Shown: piece by piece, positions 14,164 through 22,416 of the stretch | How positions within the stretch are numbered: the stretch's first letter is position 1 | Layout: each line of letters begins with the position of its first letter | Assembly (NCBI RefSeq): GCF_014643175.1 | Contig: NZ_BMJH01000004.1 | Coordinates: 124,001-188,000 of the forward strand | Source of the DNA: Hoyosella rhizosphaerae | Lineage (GTDB): Bacteria > Actinomycetota > Actinomycetes > Mycobacteriales > Mycobacteriaceae | DNA: 64,000 nt | Direction of reading: 5' to 3' | Translations under genes and position numbers: made by a program | Notes under the pieces: model-generated | Seen by the model: the letters and a program-made list of their open reading frames with translations, nothing else | Database searches by the model: none | What the model was told of the DNA's origin: nothing

Positions 14164-15407
14164 TGACCAATCCGACACAACGTCGCCACTGGCTGGTTGT
14201 TGCCCTGGCGATGTTTACCGTCGCCTGGGGTGGCAACGAATTCACTCCGCTTCTGACGATGTACAGGCTCGACTACGGGTTTTCGGACGTTGTCGTCGAC
14301 GCGATGCTGTTCGCCTACGTGCTGGGCATCATCCCGGCGTTGCTATTAGGCGGTCCGCTGTCGGATCGATTCGGCCGCCGTGCGCTGATGGTTCCCGCTC
14401 CCGTGATCGCGATCGCCGGTTCGGTGATACTTGCTGTGGGCGCAGATCATGCGGCGTTGCTTATCGGCGGTCGGCTTCTGTCTGGGGTGTCGCTTGGTCT
14501 CGCAATGGCTGTCGGCGGAAGCTGGTTGACGGAACTTTCCACAGCTCCGTGGGATACCCGTGCGTCGACCGGGGCTGGTCCGCGGCGTGTAGCGATGGCA
14601 CTCACCGCGGGCTTCGGGGTCGGTGCCGGGGTAGCAGGGATCCTCGCTGAGTGGGGGCCGTGGCCTAGCGTTTTTCCCTACGTAGTCCACAGCGCACTCA
14701 CGCTGGTCGCTTTCGTTCTTCTCCTGCGCGTTCCGGAAACTCGAGTGAACATCTCGGCGAAGGCACGCACGACCAGGCTGGTTGACGATCTTAAGATCCC
14801 GTCGGCTGGCAAGAAACGATTCTGGTTCCTCATCGTTCCCGTTGCCCCTTGGGTGTTTGGCGCAGCTGCCTCCGCCTACGCGATCCTGCCGAGCCTGATG
14901 ACAGAACGTGCGGCGTCCGCCCCCATCGCGTTTTCAGCGTTCCTGTGTCTGGTGGCATTGGGATTCGGGTTTGGTATCCAAGCCTTCGGTCGGCGGATAG
15001 ACAAGCCAGGCAGCGCACGGGCGATCGTGACCGCGTTTGGGCTGCTCATCGTCGCGTTGCCTCTGGCCGCACTCGCTGCATGCACGCTGTCGTTTCCGAT
15101 AGTTGTGATTGCGGCGGCATTCCTCGGAATGGCGTACGGCATGGCGCTCGTCGGCGGTTTACTTGAGGTGCAGCGAATCGCAACACCTGACGATCTCGCA
15201 GGGTTGAATGCCGTGTTCTACTCGCTCAGCTACATGGGCTTTGCGGTCCCCATGATGATGGCGGTCGGCGTCACCTGGGTTAGCTACCCTGTGATGTTCC
15301 TAGCGGGAACACTCGCTGCGTTGTTCTGCCTTCTGCTCGTTGTTGTGGGAGCACGGGGCACTAGTCCGCGCGCAGTCAAGGCAAATCAGGCAGTGGCTTC
15401 TTCCTGA
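14163..15407 (+). CDS. MFS transporter
   Basis: A 414-residue protein with about twelve membrane segments. The loop 2-3 signature is GGPLSDRFGRRALM near residue 60, and a half-repeat of it lies in the central loop. The central cytosolic loop (PETRVNISAKARTTRLVDDL) is of normal length. The substrate cannot be told from sequence. ATG 14163 overlaps the stop of the GntR gene and follows GAGG 6 nt upstream, so the two form an operon and the regulator probably senses the transported compound. The 3' end overlaps the convergent M1 peptidase gene by 32 bp. Confidence 0.9.
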   Translation: MTNPTQRRHWLVVALAMFTVAWGGNEFTPLLTMYRLDYGFSDVVVDAMLFAYVLGIIPALLLGGPLSDRFGRRALMVPAPVIAIAGSVILAVGADHAALLIGGRLLSGVSLGLAMAVGGSWLTELSTAPWDTRASTGAGPRRVAMALTAGFGVGAGVAGILAEWGPWPSVFPYVVHSALTLVAFVLLLRVPETRVNISAKARTTRLVDDLKIPSAGKKRFWFLIVPVAPWVFGAAASAYAILPSLMTERAASAPIAFSAFLCLVALGFGFGIQAFGRRIDKPGSARAIVTAFGLLIVALPLAALAACTLSFPIVVIAAAFLGMAYGMALVGGLLEVQRIATPDDLAGLNAVFYSLSYMGFAVPMMMAVGVTWVSYPVMFLAGTLAALFCLLLVVVGARGTSPRAVKANQAVASS

Positions 15408-16725
15408 GCCAATCGCTCCACAAATCATCAAGTGGCTGGGCGGTGTAGTGCGTCGCTAGTTCTGTGAAATCGGCGGTGGTAACAGTGGAGTACCTGTACC
15501 GGTTTGTCCAGTCTTGGAGCAGCGAAAAGAATGGGTCGTCGCCAATGCGTGTGCGGAGCGAATGCAAGGTGAGTGCGCCTCGCTTGTAGACGCGGTCGTC
15601 GAACAGGTTTCTTGGCCCCGGATCAGTCAGAATGAGGTCCTTGCTGCTGCGGTTGAGCTTCAACCAATAGTGTTCGGCCCATTCTTTAGCCGCTGGCCCA
15701 TCGCTGTTTTCTGACCACAACCATTCCGCGTAGCAGGCAAACCCTTCGTGCAGCCAGATGTCGCGGTACTGAGCCGCGGTGACGCTATTGCCGAACCATT
15801 GGTGGGCGAGTTCGTGGGCGATGAGTCGCTCAGAGTGTCGCGTGCCGTCGCAGTGGTTGGCTCCGAACACGGACATGCATTGCGCTTCGAGCGGTATCTC
15901 TAGCGCGTCGTCGGTGACAACTACCGTGTAGCTCGGGAAAGGGTAGGGGCCAAACAGTTGCGAGAAGAGCTTCATCATCCTGTTTTGGCGGGCGAAATCG
16001 TGGTCAAAGTTGGTGCGCAACCGTGGTGGGAGTGCGGCTGTGATGGGAACCGGCGTCGTGGCCACGGTGTGCGTGGCATAGTGGCCGATTTGAATGGTCG
16101 CAAGGTAGGGCGACATGGGCTCTGGCTGGTCGTATACCCGTGTGGTGGTGCCCGGGCCTGACTTGGTGCTCTGCAAGGTTCCGTTGGCGAGAGCACGGTA
16201 GACAGATTCCGTTGTCACGGCGATTCGGTAGCTAGCCTTGGCGCTGGGGTGGTCGTTGCACGGGAACCATGTTGAAGCGCCGTTGGGTTGGTTAGCGGTG
16301 AGGGCACCTTCCGTGAGTTCCTCCCAGCCGATTGAGCCAAAGAGATTGTTGACTGGTTGTGGTCGGCCCGCATACTTCACCTCTATACGGATGCGTTCGC
16401 CTTCGCCAATTGAGCCCTGCAGCTTGAGGCGCAGTTTGTTCTCTTTGTGGCTGAACTTTGCCACCCCAGCGCCGTTGACCTTGACCTTGCCTACCTTGAG
16501 CGCTGTAGAGAGGTCGAGGGCAATTCGGTTGAGTGGTTCATCGCAAACTGCGTTGATAATCGCCTGGCCTTCAAGGCGGTTCGTGGCCACTCTGTAGGTG
16601 ATGTCGAGGTCGTAGTGGGTGACACTGTATCCAGTGTTGCCGCTTCCCGGAATGTAAGGATCAATTGCGTTGGGGGTCATAGGTTTGCTCGGTGTCGCGG
16701 TTTCATGGTGAGAGTTGAGTTCCAC
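15376..16725 (-). CDS. M1-family zinc metallopeptidase (aminopeptidase)
   Basis: A 449-residue compact M1 peptidase. The zinc site is HELAH at 304-308 with the third ligand Glu327, spaced 18 residues (WLHEGFACYAEW). The exopeptidase GAMEN motif is replaced by IPLEAQ. The N-terminal beta-saddle domain is present, while the C-terminal helical domain of full-size PepN/ERAP enzymes is missing. No signal peptide is seen. I start at GTG 16725 because AGGAAGG lies 8 nt upstream; the longer frame to 16788 adds a basic stretch without a ribosome binding site. It lies 69 bp downstream of the Pls-type synthetase gene in the same direction. Zinc aminopeptidases are known to degrade epsilon-polylysine in producing Streptomyces, so a linked role is likely but not proven. 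Confidence 0.9.
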   Translation of the reverse strand: MELNSHHETATPSKPMTPNAIDPYIPGSGNTGYSVTHYDLDITYRVATNRLEGQAIINAVCDEPLNRIALDLSTALKVGKVKVNGAGVAKFSHKENKLRLKLQGSIGEGERIRIEVKYAGRPQPVNNLFGSIGWEELTEGALTANQPNGASTWFPCNDHPSAKASYRIAVTTESVYRALANGTLQSTKSGPGTTTRVYDQPEPMSPYLATIQIGHYATHTVATTPVPITAALPPRLRTNFDHDFARQNRMMKLFSQLFGPYPFPSYTVVVTDDALEIPLEAQCMSVFGANHCDGTRHSERLIAHELAHQWFGNSVTAAQYRDIWLHEGFACYAEWLWSENSDGPAAKEWAEHYWLKLNRSSKDLILTDPGPRNLFDDRVYKRGALTLHSLRTRIGDDPFFSLLQDWTNRYRYSTVTTADFTELATHYTAQPLDDLWSDWLRKKPLPDLP

Positions 16726-16794
16726 CGAGGCGTCCTTCCTGAGGTTGCGGGCAGTGCGGCTACTAATACCACGGCTTTTCAGTGCCATGGCTTT

Positions 16795-19700
16795 TCAGTG
16801 CCACGGGGCAATTGGATTTCCTTGCCATCGGCTCGAGGCTGGCACAACGTCACCGCGCATTACGAGCGATGCGGGGCCAACAGTTGAGCCGTCACCGAGT
16901 TCTGCGGCTGGCAGAACAACGCTGTGTGGACCCAGGGTGGCGCCCTTGCCTACCATGACTGGACCCACGCTCATCACTCTGTCGTGGAAGAGGTGAGTTT
17001 GCACGACGCTGCCGCGGTTCACTGTGGAACCGTCACCGAGGTGCACAAGGTCGGCCTCGGGTAGCCAGTACGTCTCACACCACACGCCACGTCCGATATG
17101 GGCCCCCATTCCACGTAGCCACACGTTACCTACGATTGTGCCAATGCAGAGGCGCGAGCACCATGGTGCGGCGACGACTTCTGTGAATGTGTCGGCGAGT
17201 TCGTTTCGCCAGACGAAGCTACTCCACAATGGTGTGTCATGTTCGATGACACTTCCGACCAGGACCTTCTTCGCGCAGATTGTGCTGATGGCGGCGACAC
17301 ACGCGCCGAGTGCAAGCACTGCGCCACTCAAGGCAAGCGTTGCCCACAGCCCGGCCGCGGCCAGCAGTGCGGCAAGCGAACCGAGGATTGCCACCGCAAT
17401 CGCGAATGACAGCATCACCGGTACTAGACGCCCCAATTCGACGATGCCCCGTAAGACTCGCAGCTGCGCGGTCGGAGAGAATGTGCGCTTGCTAGCCGAC
17501 CCTTTATGCGCTTGTCGGCGCAACTTCACCGGCGGGCTGCCAAGCCACGACGAACCACGTTTAGCCTTCGCGGGGACTGCCGAAAGGACAGCAACAAGAC
17601 CATTCTTGGGAACTTTTCGTCCAGGGCTAGCCATTCCGGAGTTGCCGAGAAACGCCCGTTTTCCAATTTTTGTTGGCCCAATTCGAATCCAACCGTGCCC
17701 AAGTTCGTAGGCGGCGACGAGGGTGTCGTCTGCGAGGAATGCGCCGTCAGCGATTGTTGTGAACTTAGGGATCAGCAGAACGGTTGACGCTTCGACGTTC
17801 TTGCCTACTTTGGCGCCGAGGAGCCTTAGCCACACTGGTGTGATGATGCTGGCGTAAAGGGGGAACAGGAATGTTCGGGCCGAGTCGGTAAGCCGCTCTG
17901 TTGCCCACGCTTGCCAACCAATGCGGCTACGAACTGGGTAGGTTCCTGGTCGGAGTCCGATGGCGAACAGTCGCACTGCGATAACGGTCAACAGTGCGAA
18001 TGTTGCCATCCACAGAAGCGCAGCAGCGGGTATCCAAGCGGCTAGCGGTAGCAGGATTTCAGTGGCGGACTCCGTGCCAGAAATGATGCCGACGAGAATC
18101 ACCATGGCCGGGATGAGTGCTACGCCTGGAAGGAGTGCCAGTCCGATGGCGGTGATCCCAAAGATCATTCCCCATCGGCTGCCGCGGGGTGGTGGGGTTG
18201 TTGGCCATTCGTGCGTATCACGGCCCGTGGCGGCTGCGGGAGATCCCGCCCAACGCTGTCCTGCGGGCACACGCATCGTGACAGCAGATCCTGCGTCAAT
18301 GTGCGCACCCTTGCCTACCTTGGTTCCTGGAAGCAGTGTCGATCGTGCACCGATGCTGGCTTTCGCTCCAATGACAGTGCGTCCGATATGCAGTGTGTCG
18401 CCGTCGAGCCAGTGTCCCGTGAGGTCGGTTTCGGGTTCGATCGCGGCGCCGTCACCGACGGTCAGTAGTCCAGTAATGGGCGGGATGGTGTGGAAGCTGA
18501 CATCTTTCCCAACATTCGCACCGAGAGCGCGGGCGTACAGGCTCATCCACGGTGCACTTGCGACTGCTGTGACGTTGGTGGCTTCGGCAATACGCTCGGC
18601 AAGCCATAGCTTGAGGTGTGTTGATCCTCCGCGGCTGTACTGGCCCGGGGTGACGCCGCGCAACAGTAACCGTGCGCTCACTGTTGTGATGGCGATGCGG
18701 CCAGGAGGCGTGAGGAGGGTTAGGGCAAGGAACGCGAGAATGGGCCACGGCACTGATGGAAGCCACGGTGCTCCAGTGAACGACGCAAGAAGGGTGCTGG
18801 CAATAGCTGCCCACGTGGTCCACATCGCGCCGGTGATGCCAAACGGGATCGCAAGGAGTGCGATTTGCAGTGCTTGGCTGCGCCGTGACTGAGGAGTGAC
18901 ATGGCGGGTTGCTGTGCTCAACGTGGGTGCGAGAGCTTCGAGATAGGTAGCTAGATCAGAAAGCTTGTGGTGGGCATATAAGTCGGCGACGGTGAGTACA
19001 GGGAACTTGGTGCGCAGTTGGGACACGAGTTGTGCGGCGGTGAGTGAACTTCCGCCGAGCTCGAAGAAGTCTGCGTCGGCGTAAACCTCGGTACCAAGAA
19101 CGTCGGACCAAACGGATGCGACCCAGGCTTCCATGCCCACTAGGGGCGGTCGTGAGTCATCCACCTCTGTGGCTAGCGGCCATGGTAGGGCCGCGCGGTC
19201 TACTTTGCCTGATGTTCGCGTCGGGAGGTCCGGCAATACGGCGAGCCGCGGGATCAACGATGCGGGAAGGTACGCGCTGAGCGTGGTGCGGGCAGCCGCG
19301 ACATCGAAAGTCTCGCCACTTGTTGTGAGGTATCCGACGAGCACGGGTGTACCAGCCTGCGTGGTTTGCACGGCGGTTGCGGCTGCCGTGACGCCGGGCA
19401 GGTTGTGGAGAAGTGTGTCTATCTCTCCTAGTTCGACGCGACGGCCACCAATCTTGACCTGGTCGTCAGCGCGTCCGAGGAATATGAGTCCGTCGCCGTC
19501 GAAGGAGACCAGGTCCCCGCTGCGGTAGGCGCGCTGCCAGCCCAGCGACGGCAGTGGTGCGTACTTGTGACGATCCTTTTCCGGGTCGAGGTAGCGGGCA
19601 ATTCCGGCGCCGCCGATGACAAGTTCACCAGACTGCCCGGGGGCTACTGGATTTCCGTCTGTGTCGATAATGGCGAGGTCCCAGCCGTCTAACGGAAGAC

Positions 19701-20709
19701 CGATACGGACGGGCTCACCCGGGATGAGCGGTGCCGCGCACGCGACAACAGTGGCCTCAGTCGGGCCGTATGTATTCCACACTTCACGTTGGGGTGCTGC
19801 GAGGCGGCTTACAAGCTCAGGCGGGCATGCTTCGCCGCCGAATATGAGGAGGCGAATCGATTCGAGGTATTCACTGGGCCACAGTGCGGCGAGTGTCGGC
19901 ACGGTGGAGATGGCAGTGATGTCGTGGCTAACTAACCAGGGACCGAGGTCTGCTCCGCTGCGAACTATTGAGCGCGGTGCCGGGACAAGGCAGGCGCCGG
20001 TGCGCCATGCGAGCCACATTTCTTCACAGGAAGCATCGAACGCGACCGAGAGGCCCGCAAGAACACGGTCTCCTGGGCCGAGAGGGCGGTGTTGGAGGAA
20101 GAGTCGCGCCTCGGCGTCAACAAACGCGGCTGCGTTGCTATGTGTGACGGCGACACCTTTGGGTACGCCTGTAGAGCCGGAGGTAAAGATGATCCATGCG
20201 TCGTCGTGCGTCAACGGTGGTCGAGCGGGAGTGGAGTGCATCGGGCGGTGAGTTCGCCGCTTGGTGAATCCTTCATCAGTGACGATCGCCGCGACGTCAG
20301 CTTCACTGAAGACAAGAGTCGCGCGATCTTCTGGGTCGTCAGCGTCGACAGGTACGTAGGCGGCTCCTGCGGCGAGGACTGCGAGGATGCCGATGTACAG
20401 CTCGGCGGTGCCGGACGAGATGCGGATTCCCACCCGGGACCCGGCGCCGATTCCGTGCTGGTTGAGCGCGTCGGCTTGCTTGTGCACTTCGGTGAGAAGT
20501 TGTGCGTAGGTATATATGGTGTCGCCGGTATCGAGGGCAGCGGCGTTGGGGTGCGCTGCGGTCGTTGCCTGCAATATATCGATGAGGGTTCGCGCCCTCG
20601 GCGCCCGGTGAGAGGCTAGTAGTGCGTCGGACGCGTCTGTCGCCACCTGTGTAGCGCGCTCACCGTATGGCTGCGCTGGTGACGTCCCAGTTGTCAGTCC
20701 GGTGGTCAT
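16795..20709 (-). CDS. Pls/PosA-family single-module non-ribosomal peptide synthetase (epsilon-polylysine-synthetase-like)
   Basis: A 1304-residue membrane enzyme. Domains in order: adenylation (about 40-510) with FTSGSTGVPKG at 175-185, NTYGPTE at 312-318, YRSGDL at 395-400 and the catalytic Lys502; a carrier domain (about 525-590) with GGSSL at 552-556; then three repeats of a membrane-segment pair followed by a soluble left-handed beta-helix domain, near 612-830, 848-1060 and 1094-1300. There is no condensation or thioesterase domain. This is the layout of Streptomyces epsilon-poly-L-lysine synthetase, where the tandem C-terminal domains join monomers. The pocket residues read D225 A226 E229 S268 I289 G291 T313 V321 V322 K502, close to known lysine codes. 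ATG 20709 overlaps the stop of the MarR gene. Confidence 0.92.
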   Translation of the reverse strand: MTTGLTTGTSPAQPYGERATQVATDASDALLASHRAPRARTLIDILQATTAAHPNAAALDTGDTIYTYAQLLTEVHKQADALNQHGIGAGSRVGIRISSGTAELYIGILAVLAAGAAYVPVDADDPEDRATLVFSEADVAAIVTDEGFTKRRTHRPMHSTPARPPLTHDDAWIIFTSGSTGVPKGVAVTHSNAAAFVDAEARLFLQHRPLGPGDRVLAGLSVAFDASCEEMWLAWRTGACLVPAPRSIVRSGADLGPWLVSHDITAISTVPTLAALWPSEYLESIRLLIFGGEACPPELVSRLAAPQREVWNTYGPTEATVVACAAPLIPGEPVRIGLPLDGWDLAIIDTDGNPVAPGQSGELVIGGAGIARYLDPEKDRHKYAPLPSLGWQRAYRSGDLVSFDGDGLIFLGRADDQVKIGGRRVELGEIDTLLHNLPGVTAAATAVQTTQAGTPVLVGYLTTSGETFDVAAARTTLSAYLPASLIPRLAVLPDLPTRTSGKVDRAALPWPLATEVDDSRPPLVGMEAWVASVWSDVLGTEVYADADFFELGGSSLTAAQLVSQLRTKFPVLTVADLYAHHKLSDLATYLEALAPTLSTATRHVTPQSRRSQALQIALLAIPFGITGAMWTTWAAIASTLLASFTGAPWLPSVPWPILAFLALTLLTPPGRIAITTVSARLLLRGVTPGQYSRGGSTHLKLWLAERIAEATNVTAVASAPWMSLYARALGANVGKDVSFHTIPPITGLLTVGDGAAIEPETDLTGHWLDGDTLHIGRTVIGAKASIGARSTLLPGTKVGKGAHIDAGSAVTMRVPAGQRWAGSPAAATGRDTHEWPTTPPPRGSRWGMIFGITAIGLALLPGVALIPAMVILVGIISGTESATEILLPLAAWIPAAALLWMATFALLTVIAVRLFAIGLRPGTYPVRSRIGWQAWATERLTDSARTFLFPLYASIITPVWLRLLGAKVGKNVEASTVLLIPKFTTIADGAFLADDTLVAAYELGHGWIRIGPTKIGKRAFLGNSGMASPGRKVPKNGLVAVLSAVPAKAKRGSSWLGSPPVKLRRQAHKGSASKRTFSPTAQLRVLRGIVELGRLVPVMLSFAIAVAILGSLAALLAAAGLWATLALSGAVLALGACVAAISTICAKKVLVGSVIEHDTPLWSSFVWRNELADTFTEVVAAPWCSRLCIGTIVGNVWLRGMGAHIGRGVWCETYWLPEADLVHLGDGSTVNRGSVVQTHLFHDRVMSVGPVMVGKGATLGPHSVVLPAAELGDGSTVGPASLVMRGDVVPASSRWQGNPIAPWH

Positions 20710-21188
20710 TTCTTCCCTTTCCGCGGAGTTCGTTCTCCGAGTCCCAGCGCCTTGCCAGCGAGGTGGTGGAATGTTGTGCGCTCATCGCGCGATAGTGGCT
20801 GCAGCGCGCTGTCGAGCGCATTGTTGACTGCTGCGTCGCATAGTTTCTGTGCCGCGCGCCCGGCCTTTGTTAGGGCGAGGGTGTGCTTGCGGCGGTCTTT
20901 CTTGTCGCGTGTGCGGGTAAGCAGTCCTCGCTCTTCAAGCTCGTCTACTAGTCGCACCATGTCGCTGCGGTCGATGGCGAGCGCATTGCACACTTGCTGC
21001 TGCGATTGCGGTTCTTCGCCGAGGAGGCAGGTGAGAACCCAGTGTGCTTTGAGGCTGAACCCTGCTTCAGCGAGTGGGCCTTCCACGTGATCGCGAACGG
21101 TTCGGTGCAGCCGTGCGATGAGAAAATCGGCGCTACCGAGGGCAGGGGCAGTGGAAGTTGCTTGGTTGGGCACTGAGCAACCGTACAT
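20706..21188 (-). CDS. MarR-family transcriptional regulator
   Basis: A winged-helix regulator of 160 residues. Visible are the dimer helices at both ends, the recognition region (QQQVCNALAIDRSDMVRLVDELEERGL) and the wing (RDKKDRRKHTLALT). It ends with a basic tail (ERTPRKGKK). MarR proteins usually repress by binding a palindrome until a small ligand binds. Its stop codon overlaps the start of the synthetase gene by 4 bp, so it is the first gene of that operon and its most likely target is its own promoter. I take the ATG at 21188; the frame stays open to 21272 but that extension would run through the inverted repeat at 21238-21258. Confidence 0.87.
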   Translation of the reverse strand: MYGCSVPNQATSTAPALGSADFLIARLHRTVRDHVEGPLAEAGFSLKAHWVLTCLLGEEPQSQQQVCNALAIDRSDMVRLVDELEERGLLTRTRDKKDRRKHTLALTKAGRAAQKLCDAAVNNALDSALQPLSRDERTTFHHLAGKALGLGERTPRKGKK

Positions 21189-21237
21189 GATTGTGGGTTT
21201 TGTAGATAGTTGGGCGCGCCAATGGTTGGAAAAATCC

Positions 21238-21258
21238 GACACTTTTCCGTGAAGTGTC
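21238..21258. promoter_or_regulatory. Inverted repeat upstream of the MarR-synthetase operon (candidate operator)
   Basis: GACACTT-ttccgtg-AAGTGTC is a perfect 7-bp-arm repeat about 50 bp before the MarR start and in the gap to the divergent solute-binding lipoprotein gene. Size and place fit a MarR operator. A TTGACA sits at 21272-21267 on the minus strand just upstream, so the repeat would lie inside the promoter. Confidence 0.45.
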
Positions 21259-21438
21259 CCTCTATGTGTCAACGACTACGGACGGGTCGAAACGTGAACA
21301 AGCTCACGAGAGGTATAACCCCTGGTCGCGGTGGGGAAAGATACTAAGCATCACTCAGCAGGTATTCTTCATCTACACAAACCCGGCGCACGCATGCGCT
21401 AGAGCAGCGCAACGTGAAATGAACGGGGGAAGGGAAGC

Positions 21439-22416
21439 ATGAGTGTTCGACACAGCACTAACTGGGTGCGAGCAACCCTTATTGCGTGTTTAGTCCTGGT
21501 TGTAGGGGTGGCAGCATTCGCTACAAGTTGCAGCCAAAGCCGAAACACCCCAGGGACTGCGACGCCCACTGAGTTGTTCGTCGTCAATACCAGCCCCGAA
21601 CAGCAAAGAATCAGAGCAGAAGTGGTCCGTGCGATAGCAGACCGCGTGCCAGATGACATGCGAAAAGCAGGAACCCTCACAGTCGCCACCACTGGCAACG
21701 TGCCCCCGCTATCATTTCGGGCTGATGATGCGATGACGATGATCGGTGTAGAACCAGATCTCGCCCAACTCATAGCTGACGTCCTCGACTTGAATCTCGA
21801 ACTCGTCACCACTGGATGGCACGACCTGTTTGAAGGGGTAGAAGAAGGTCGATTTGATGTTGGTTTCGGCAACATCGTCGCCACTGCAAACCGAATGCAG
21901 CGCTTCGACATGGTCACCTACCAGGAAGAGAACCAAGCCTTCGCTGTGCTCGCGAACTCATCCATCAATTCCATTACGAGGCCGCGCGACATCTCGGGCC
22001 TCAAGATCGGTGTCGGTGCGGGCACTCGAAGCGAAGAGATCCTTCAAACGTGGAACAGCGAACTTGAGAAAGAAGGACTCGTTACTGCAGAGCTGTTGAA
22101 CTTCGTTGACGGCTGGGAGTACTACTCCGCAATGGAACGAGGCGAAATCGACGCTTCATTCGGGCCTATGTCGATACTGAACTTTGAGTCTGTCACCAAA
22201 GGCCTCACAAAAGTTGCGGGGCAGGTACCAGGTGATGGAGATCGACCTGCTCTAGTCTCCGCAATAACGAGTAAGGGCTCCGACGTGTCCAGGCTGGTAT
22301 TCGACGCAATCAATACAGTGATCATGACCGGTAAGTACCAAGCAGTATTCGAACGCTGGGCACTCGAACACGCCACCTTGACGCGTGCGAGACTCAATCC
22401 CGCGCTAGGCGATTAG
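21439..22416 (+). CDS. Solute-binding lipoprotein, amino-acid-binding family 3
   Basis: A 325-residue exported receptor. The signal peptide ends in FATSC, a lipobox with the lipid-anchored Cys at 31. The mature part follows family 3 periplasmic binding proteins: GTLTVATTGNVPPLSFRADD, GVEPDLAQLIADVLDLNLEL, then EGRFDVGFGNIVATANR and SGLKIGVGAGTRSEEIL. The family binds amino acids or opines. No permease or ATPase gene is nearby, so it may pair with a transporter coded elsewhere. ATG 21439 follows GGGAAGGGAAGC. It is divergent from the MarR-synthetase operon across the shared palindrome region, so a link with polymer precursors or products is possible. Confidence 0.83.
   Translation: MSVRHSTNWVRATLIACLVLVVGVAAFATSCSQSRNTPGTATPTELFVVNTSPEQQRIRAEVVRAIADRVPDDMRKAGTLTVATTGNVPPLSFRADDAMTMIGVEPDLAQLIADVLDLNLELVTTGWHDLFEGVEEGRFDVGFGNIVATANRMQRFDMVTYQEENQAFAVLANSSINSITRPRDISGLKIGVGAGTRSEEILQTWNSELEKEGLVTAELLNFVDGWEYYSAMERGEIDASFGPMSILNFESVTKGLTKVAGQVPGDGDRPALVSAITSKGSDVSRLVFDAINTVIMTGKYQAVFERWALEHATLTRARLNPALGD

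Follow-up and report, generated by a model that had tools for sequence, protein, structure and literature searches.

Genes and domains at the pls locus

The window (the whole 64,000-nucleotide stretch of Hoyosella rhizosphaerae DNA that was analysed) carries on its minus strand a gene for a MarR-family regulator, a pls-type gene for a predicted ε-poly-L-lysine synthetase and a gene for an M1-type zinc peptidase. The pls gene (16795..20709) is an intact frame from ATG to stop, with the coordinates given in the original prediction, and encodes 1304 amino acids laid out as an adenylation (A) domain, a carrier (T) domain and a membrane-associated region C1-C3, as judged from TIGR02353, Pfam and a match to the PDB entry 7WEW. 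The model TIGR02353 ('Pls/PosA family non-ribosomal peptide synthetase') matches residues 614-1300 with 704.8 bits (cut-off, 423.1), and the general amino-acid adenylation model TIGR01733 is also above its cut-off (330.5 versus 317.4). Pfam places AMP-binding at residues 47-372 (212.8 bits), PP-binding at 529-590 (46.3 bits) and Hexapep at 778-810; none of the four Pfam families matched at E <= 0.001 is a condensation or thioesterase domain. The A-T layout lacking both of these domains, proposed earlier, is thus borne out by the TIGR02353 and Pfam searches. TIGR02353 matches the genome at three places, of which the window pls alone passes the cut-off. On contigs C1 and C5 of this 3.5-Mb genome there are also open frames of great length (4713 to 7378 aa), each encoding several adenylation domains.

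Relatives were collected by a scan of genome contigs that gave at least 591; the best 80, at 56 to 71% identity to the window Pls, were retained, and 20 hand-picked loci of the family were added. A column of the alignment of 81 sequences was called near-invariant when at least 79 of them share the residue. The T domain (residues 529-590; 18940..19125, minus strand) has a serine at position 555 in 81/81 sequences, probably its phosphopantetheine serine.

The C-terminal region (residues 606-1304; 16798..18894, minus strand) combines three hexapeptide-transferase-like soluble parts with hydrophobic segments, on the evidence of TIGR02353, weak PDB matches, conservation and hydropathy. A crude hydropathy scan finds clear pairs of segments before the second soluble part (858-876 and 901-919) and the third (1098-1116 and 1137-1155), and before the first a single segment barely over threshold (657-675), so that of the three membrane pairs in the original prediction two are clear and the first shows one segment only. 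The same scan marked a segment at 101-123, within the A domain, which was taken as false. A PDB sequence search with the C-terminal region returned 29 weak matches (E <= 0.01), to hexapeptide acyltransferases and gamma carbonic anhydrases, falling in the first and third soluble parts; none of the 29 is a polylysine synthetase by name.

Conservation bears on the question of a decayed or inactive copy, which we hold to be highly improbable. Five residues of the window Pls differ from near-invariant columns, namely K700 (R in 80/81), N712 (G in 79/81) and K1148 (W in 79/81) in the C-terminal region and, as milder changes in the A domain, I347 (where 79 have V) and I370 (where 80 have L); these five departures are what speaks for decay. 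Against it stand the intact frame and the retention of every residue found invariant in 81/81 sequences that we list here: Ser555, H740, E1002 and the QTHLFHD stretch at 1237-1243, which contributes H1239, H1242 and D1243. Loss of a conserved catalytic residue from all three C-terminal domains had been named as grounds for dropping the prediction; none of the three departures there falls on H740, E1002, H1239, H1242 or D1243.

Neighbouring genes

The peptidase gene (15376..16788), which the original prediction does not mention, begins 6 bp 3′ of pls on the same strand and encodes 470 amino acids with matches to Pfam Peptidase_M1 and Peptidase_M1_N. Its zinc motif, HELAH-18-E, lies at 325-348, and Tyr401 within YKRG may be the catalytic tyrosine. 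M1 metallopeptidases carry the aminopeptidase motif GXMEN; it was not found in the 470 residues, and the LEAQ stretch at 300-303 may be its counterpart. Inspection of the N-terminus by eye revealed no clear export signal. One other M1-like match occurs in the same genome, at 27% identity. In Streptomyces albulus, pldII adjoins pls and is translationally coupled to it (PMC9223678), and its product is reviewed as an endo-type degrading enzyme that acts on the cell surface (PMC9205021). The window gene is called PldII-like by its family and its place in the gene order.

A peptidase homolog follows pls, 3′ and on its strand, at 79 of the loci of the best 80 relatives; at the lone miss (L067) the contig stops 1 base beyond the pls match. 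The hand-picked loci are more varied: 13/20 have a peptidase no further than about 2.5 kb from pls, and 7/20 have none within that distance. Over all 100 loci, the peptidase is on the same strand with fewer than 300 bases between the aligned parts in 83, on the same strand at a distance of 628 to 2185 bases in nine, and absent from the examined stretch in eight. All five loci picked from g3, a genus of small genomes (L087, L088, L092, L093 and L094), have pls and a MarR gene but lack an M1 peptidase closer than about 2.5 kb, and the pairing of pls with pldII is therefore not universal. One genome (G194) holds two pls copies with the same code (L084 and L085): one has an M1 peptidase and no MarR gene found in its short stretch, the other a MarR gene and no nearby peptidase.

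The MarR-family gene (20706..21272, minus strand; Pfam MarR_2) has 4 bp (ATGA) in common with the start of pls. Its true start is probably the GTG at 21173, judged by eye from a GTG-CC start that it shares with L004 and L005. A marR relative was detected in 14 of the 100 loci (eight of the best 80 and six of the 20 hand-picked), upstream of pls and on its strand in 14/14; the hand-picked stretches reach no more than about 650 bases upstream of pls, making 6/20 a lower bound. Six of the 14 marR-bearing loci have no peptidase within the examined stretch. At ten of the best 80 loci, the longest mechanically called ORFs upstream of pls appear by eye to be mutually unrelated. Among the matches listed in an open-access literature search, titles and the beginnings of abstracts tie no MarR protein to pls, though the word MarR does occur in the text of some of these papers.

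A perfect 7-bp inverted repeat at 21238-21258, upstream of the probable marR start, was considered as an operator. We make no such claim, because the pattern was picked post hoc and 19 of 100 shuffled versions of the window contain it one or more times when up to two mismatches are allowed; nor was the repeat seen by eye at the corresponding place in L004 or L005. A scan for promoters and terminators gave one promoter-like and five terminator-like sites, not above the shuffled level. On the plus strand, 21439-22416 encodes a stand-alone solute-binding protein similar to the StpK7 kinase model in that model's C-terminal half (99 bits over model positions 296-600 of 601; cut-off, 900); the Pfam matches of the protein include no kinase domain.

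Adenylation pocket and predicted substrate

The A domain region (residues 28-513; 19171..20628, minus strand) was aligned to 7WEW, a chain named as the A domain of epsilon-poly-L-lysine synthase, which we take to be from S. albulus. This entry tops the 184 PDB sequences matched (641 bits), with identity at 308 of the 483 aligned residues (63.8%). The specificity code read from the alignment is DAESIGTVVK (residues 225, 226, 229, 268, 289, 291, 313, 321, 322 and 502) and agrees with that of 7WEW at 10/10 positions. The first nine code positions also fit the numbering quoted for the crystal structure of PosA (217, 218, 221, 260, 280, 304, 312 and 313; PMC10522769), once a shift of one residue is allowed between 260 and 280. 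This is the code that the original prediction had read by eye.

The lysine module of bacitracin synthetase has the code DAESIGSVCK. The agreement of eight in ten with this code, on which the original prediction leaned, is confirmed as a count, and 7WEW is the closer reference at ten in ten.

In the PosA structure paper, the Asp and Glu of code positions 1 and 3 are described as binding the two amino groups of the substrate; position 2 is given as Ala in members that activate lysine, PosA having Met there and the PDAP and PDAB synthetases Phe (PMC10522769). The window pocket has Asp, Ala and Glu at positions 1 to 3, and for this reason lysine is the expected substrate. A pocket suited to a non-basic amino acid would have spoken against the prediction; the Glu that accommodates a basic side chain is there. 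Lysine activation gains support from the identity of the code to that of 7WEW and from the adjoining M1-type peptidase gene, and a Pls-type enzyme predicted to activate lysine is the best-supported reading of the gene.

Poly-ornithine, poly-diaminobutyrate, poly-diaminopropionate and ε-poly-β-lysine are all made by members of the same family (PMC10522769), so the window enzyme might instead make one of these cationic homopolymers. Acinetobacter baumannii PosA, the δ-poly-L-ornithine synthetase, shares the family and the general layout; its code, however, is DMEHNGTVSK, with Met at position 2 where the window has Ala, and agrees with the window at only 6/10 positions. For PosA's ornithine A domain (8G95) the score is 197 bits, a value not strictly comparable with the 641 bits of 7WEW as the 8G95 chain has 414 residues and lacks the C-terminal sub-domain. 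Position 2 is also not the Phe of the PDAP and PDAB synthetases (PMC10522769), whose genes are described as lying in a context unlike the pls-peptidase operon (Jiang et al., PMC8117764). On these comparisons, which took in PosA and the PDAP and PDAB synthetases, we regard another homopolymer as improbable, if somewhat less so than an inactive gene.

The window and 80/80 of the best relatives have one and the same code. Among the 20 hand-picked loci the A domain is readable in 19, and 19/19 have the same code; at one locus (L090) the best match spans residues 595-1304 only. Since these loci are near relatives, the uniformity indicates constraint but gives no independent evidence on substrate, and cannot by itself tell L-lysine from a close analogue.

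Proposed function and place in the family

We conclude with high confidence that the gene encodes an ε-poly-L-lysine synthetase (Pls) within a gene row of the marR-pls-pldII type. What is directly observed is the layout of the domains, the identity of the pocket, the order of the genes and the conservation. Following the mechanism reviewed in PMC9205021, the A domain would adenylate L-lysine and load it on the T domain, and C1-C3 would couple the T-bound lysine through its carboxyl to an ε-amino group, supplied either by free lysine or by a growing chain held non-covalently, so that chains of variable length would be released. The predicted product is ε-poly-L-lysine. The M1-type peptidase would probably degrade the polymer, for self-protection or turnover, and the MarR protein would probably control the row. 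Substrate, linkage, iterative mechanism and polymer degradation are carried over by analogy from work on Streptomyces and Corynebacterium variabile. Several points count against this explanation: C. variabile in culture and C. glutamicum carrying its gene gave no polymer (PMC8117764), the uniform code of near relatives does not set L-lysine apart from a close analogue, 7/20 hand-picked loci have no nearby peptidase, and the window peptidase has no evident export signal, compared with the cell-surface PldII of S. albulus (PMC9205021).

The window Pls resembles the Streptomyces enzymes in its A domain (63.8% identity over 483 residues to 7WEW, with the full code), in its A-T plus three-part C-terminal region and in its adjoining peptidase gene (PMC9223678), and differs in belonging to a host in the Mycobacteriales. 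On the window side, marR overlaps the pls start. A second parallel, by description, is the Pls of C. variabile, likewise coryneform and outside Streptomyces, with a pls-peptidase operon of the same kind and a predicted lysine pocket (Jiang et al. 2021, PMC8117764). That enzyme was proven to make ε-poly-L-lysine by expression in S. coelicolor, whereas the activity of the window Pls is predicted. The same report describes pls homologs in Rhodococcus and other genera (PMC8117764). A polylysine maker outside Streptomyces, as the original prediction had it, is hence supported as a reading and is not new; with C. variabile published, the surprise is gone. Open-access literature searches returned nothing joining Hoyosella with poly-L-lysine and nothing for poly-L-lysine synthetase with Mycobacterium and Rhodococcus. 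The window pls is an unexceptional representative of a family whose activity outside Streptomyces had been demonstrated before.

TIGR02353 was found (E <= 1e-50) in 184 of 201 genomes sampled from the host family, the window's genome included, with all 184 over the cut-off and 28 of 31 genera positive; among 14 control genomes it was found in Corynebacterium glutamicum only. With such breadth, it is reasonable to ask what ε-polylysine does in nature. The enzyme might activate lysine and yet have a product that modifies the envelope or serves housekeeping in the family, instead of being exported as a free antimicrobial, an idea that overlaps with the ε-poly-L-lysine synthetase assignment, the latter being about chemistry. 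Besides the breadth, it draws on the partner peptidase kept in 79/80 of the best relatives' loci and on the C. variabile report, in which neither C. variabile in culture nor C. glutamicum carrying the gene gave polymer (PMC8117764). On the other side, the polymer that the C. variabile enzyme made in S. coelicolor, the one host to yield it and with an S. albulus promoter driving the gene, was free ε-polylysine (PMC8117764), and the parts of the family literature drawn on here name no acceptor beyond lysine or its polymer. We consider an envelope or housekeeping product possible and rather unlikely. We are equally tentative about the broader proposal that ε-polylysine synthesis may be a near-core housekeeping trait of the host family, paired in many lineages with a dedicated peptidase and, in part of the family, switched by a MarR protein encoded at the front of the row, and not an occasional antibiotic.

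For the ε-poly-L-lysine synthetase reading itself, the window pls adds one species to the known distribution. The marR gene overlapping the pls start is a modest addition to the known pls-pldII operon, and it offers a concrete candidate regulator for asking why coryneform pls can be silent in culture.
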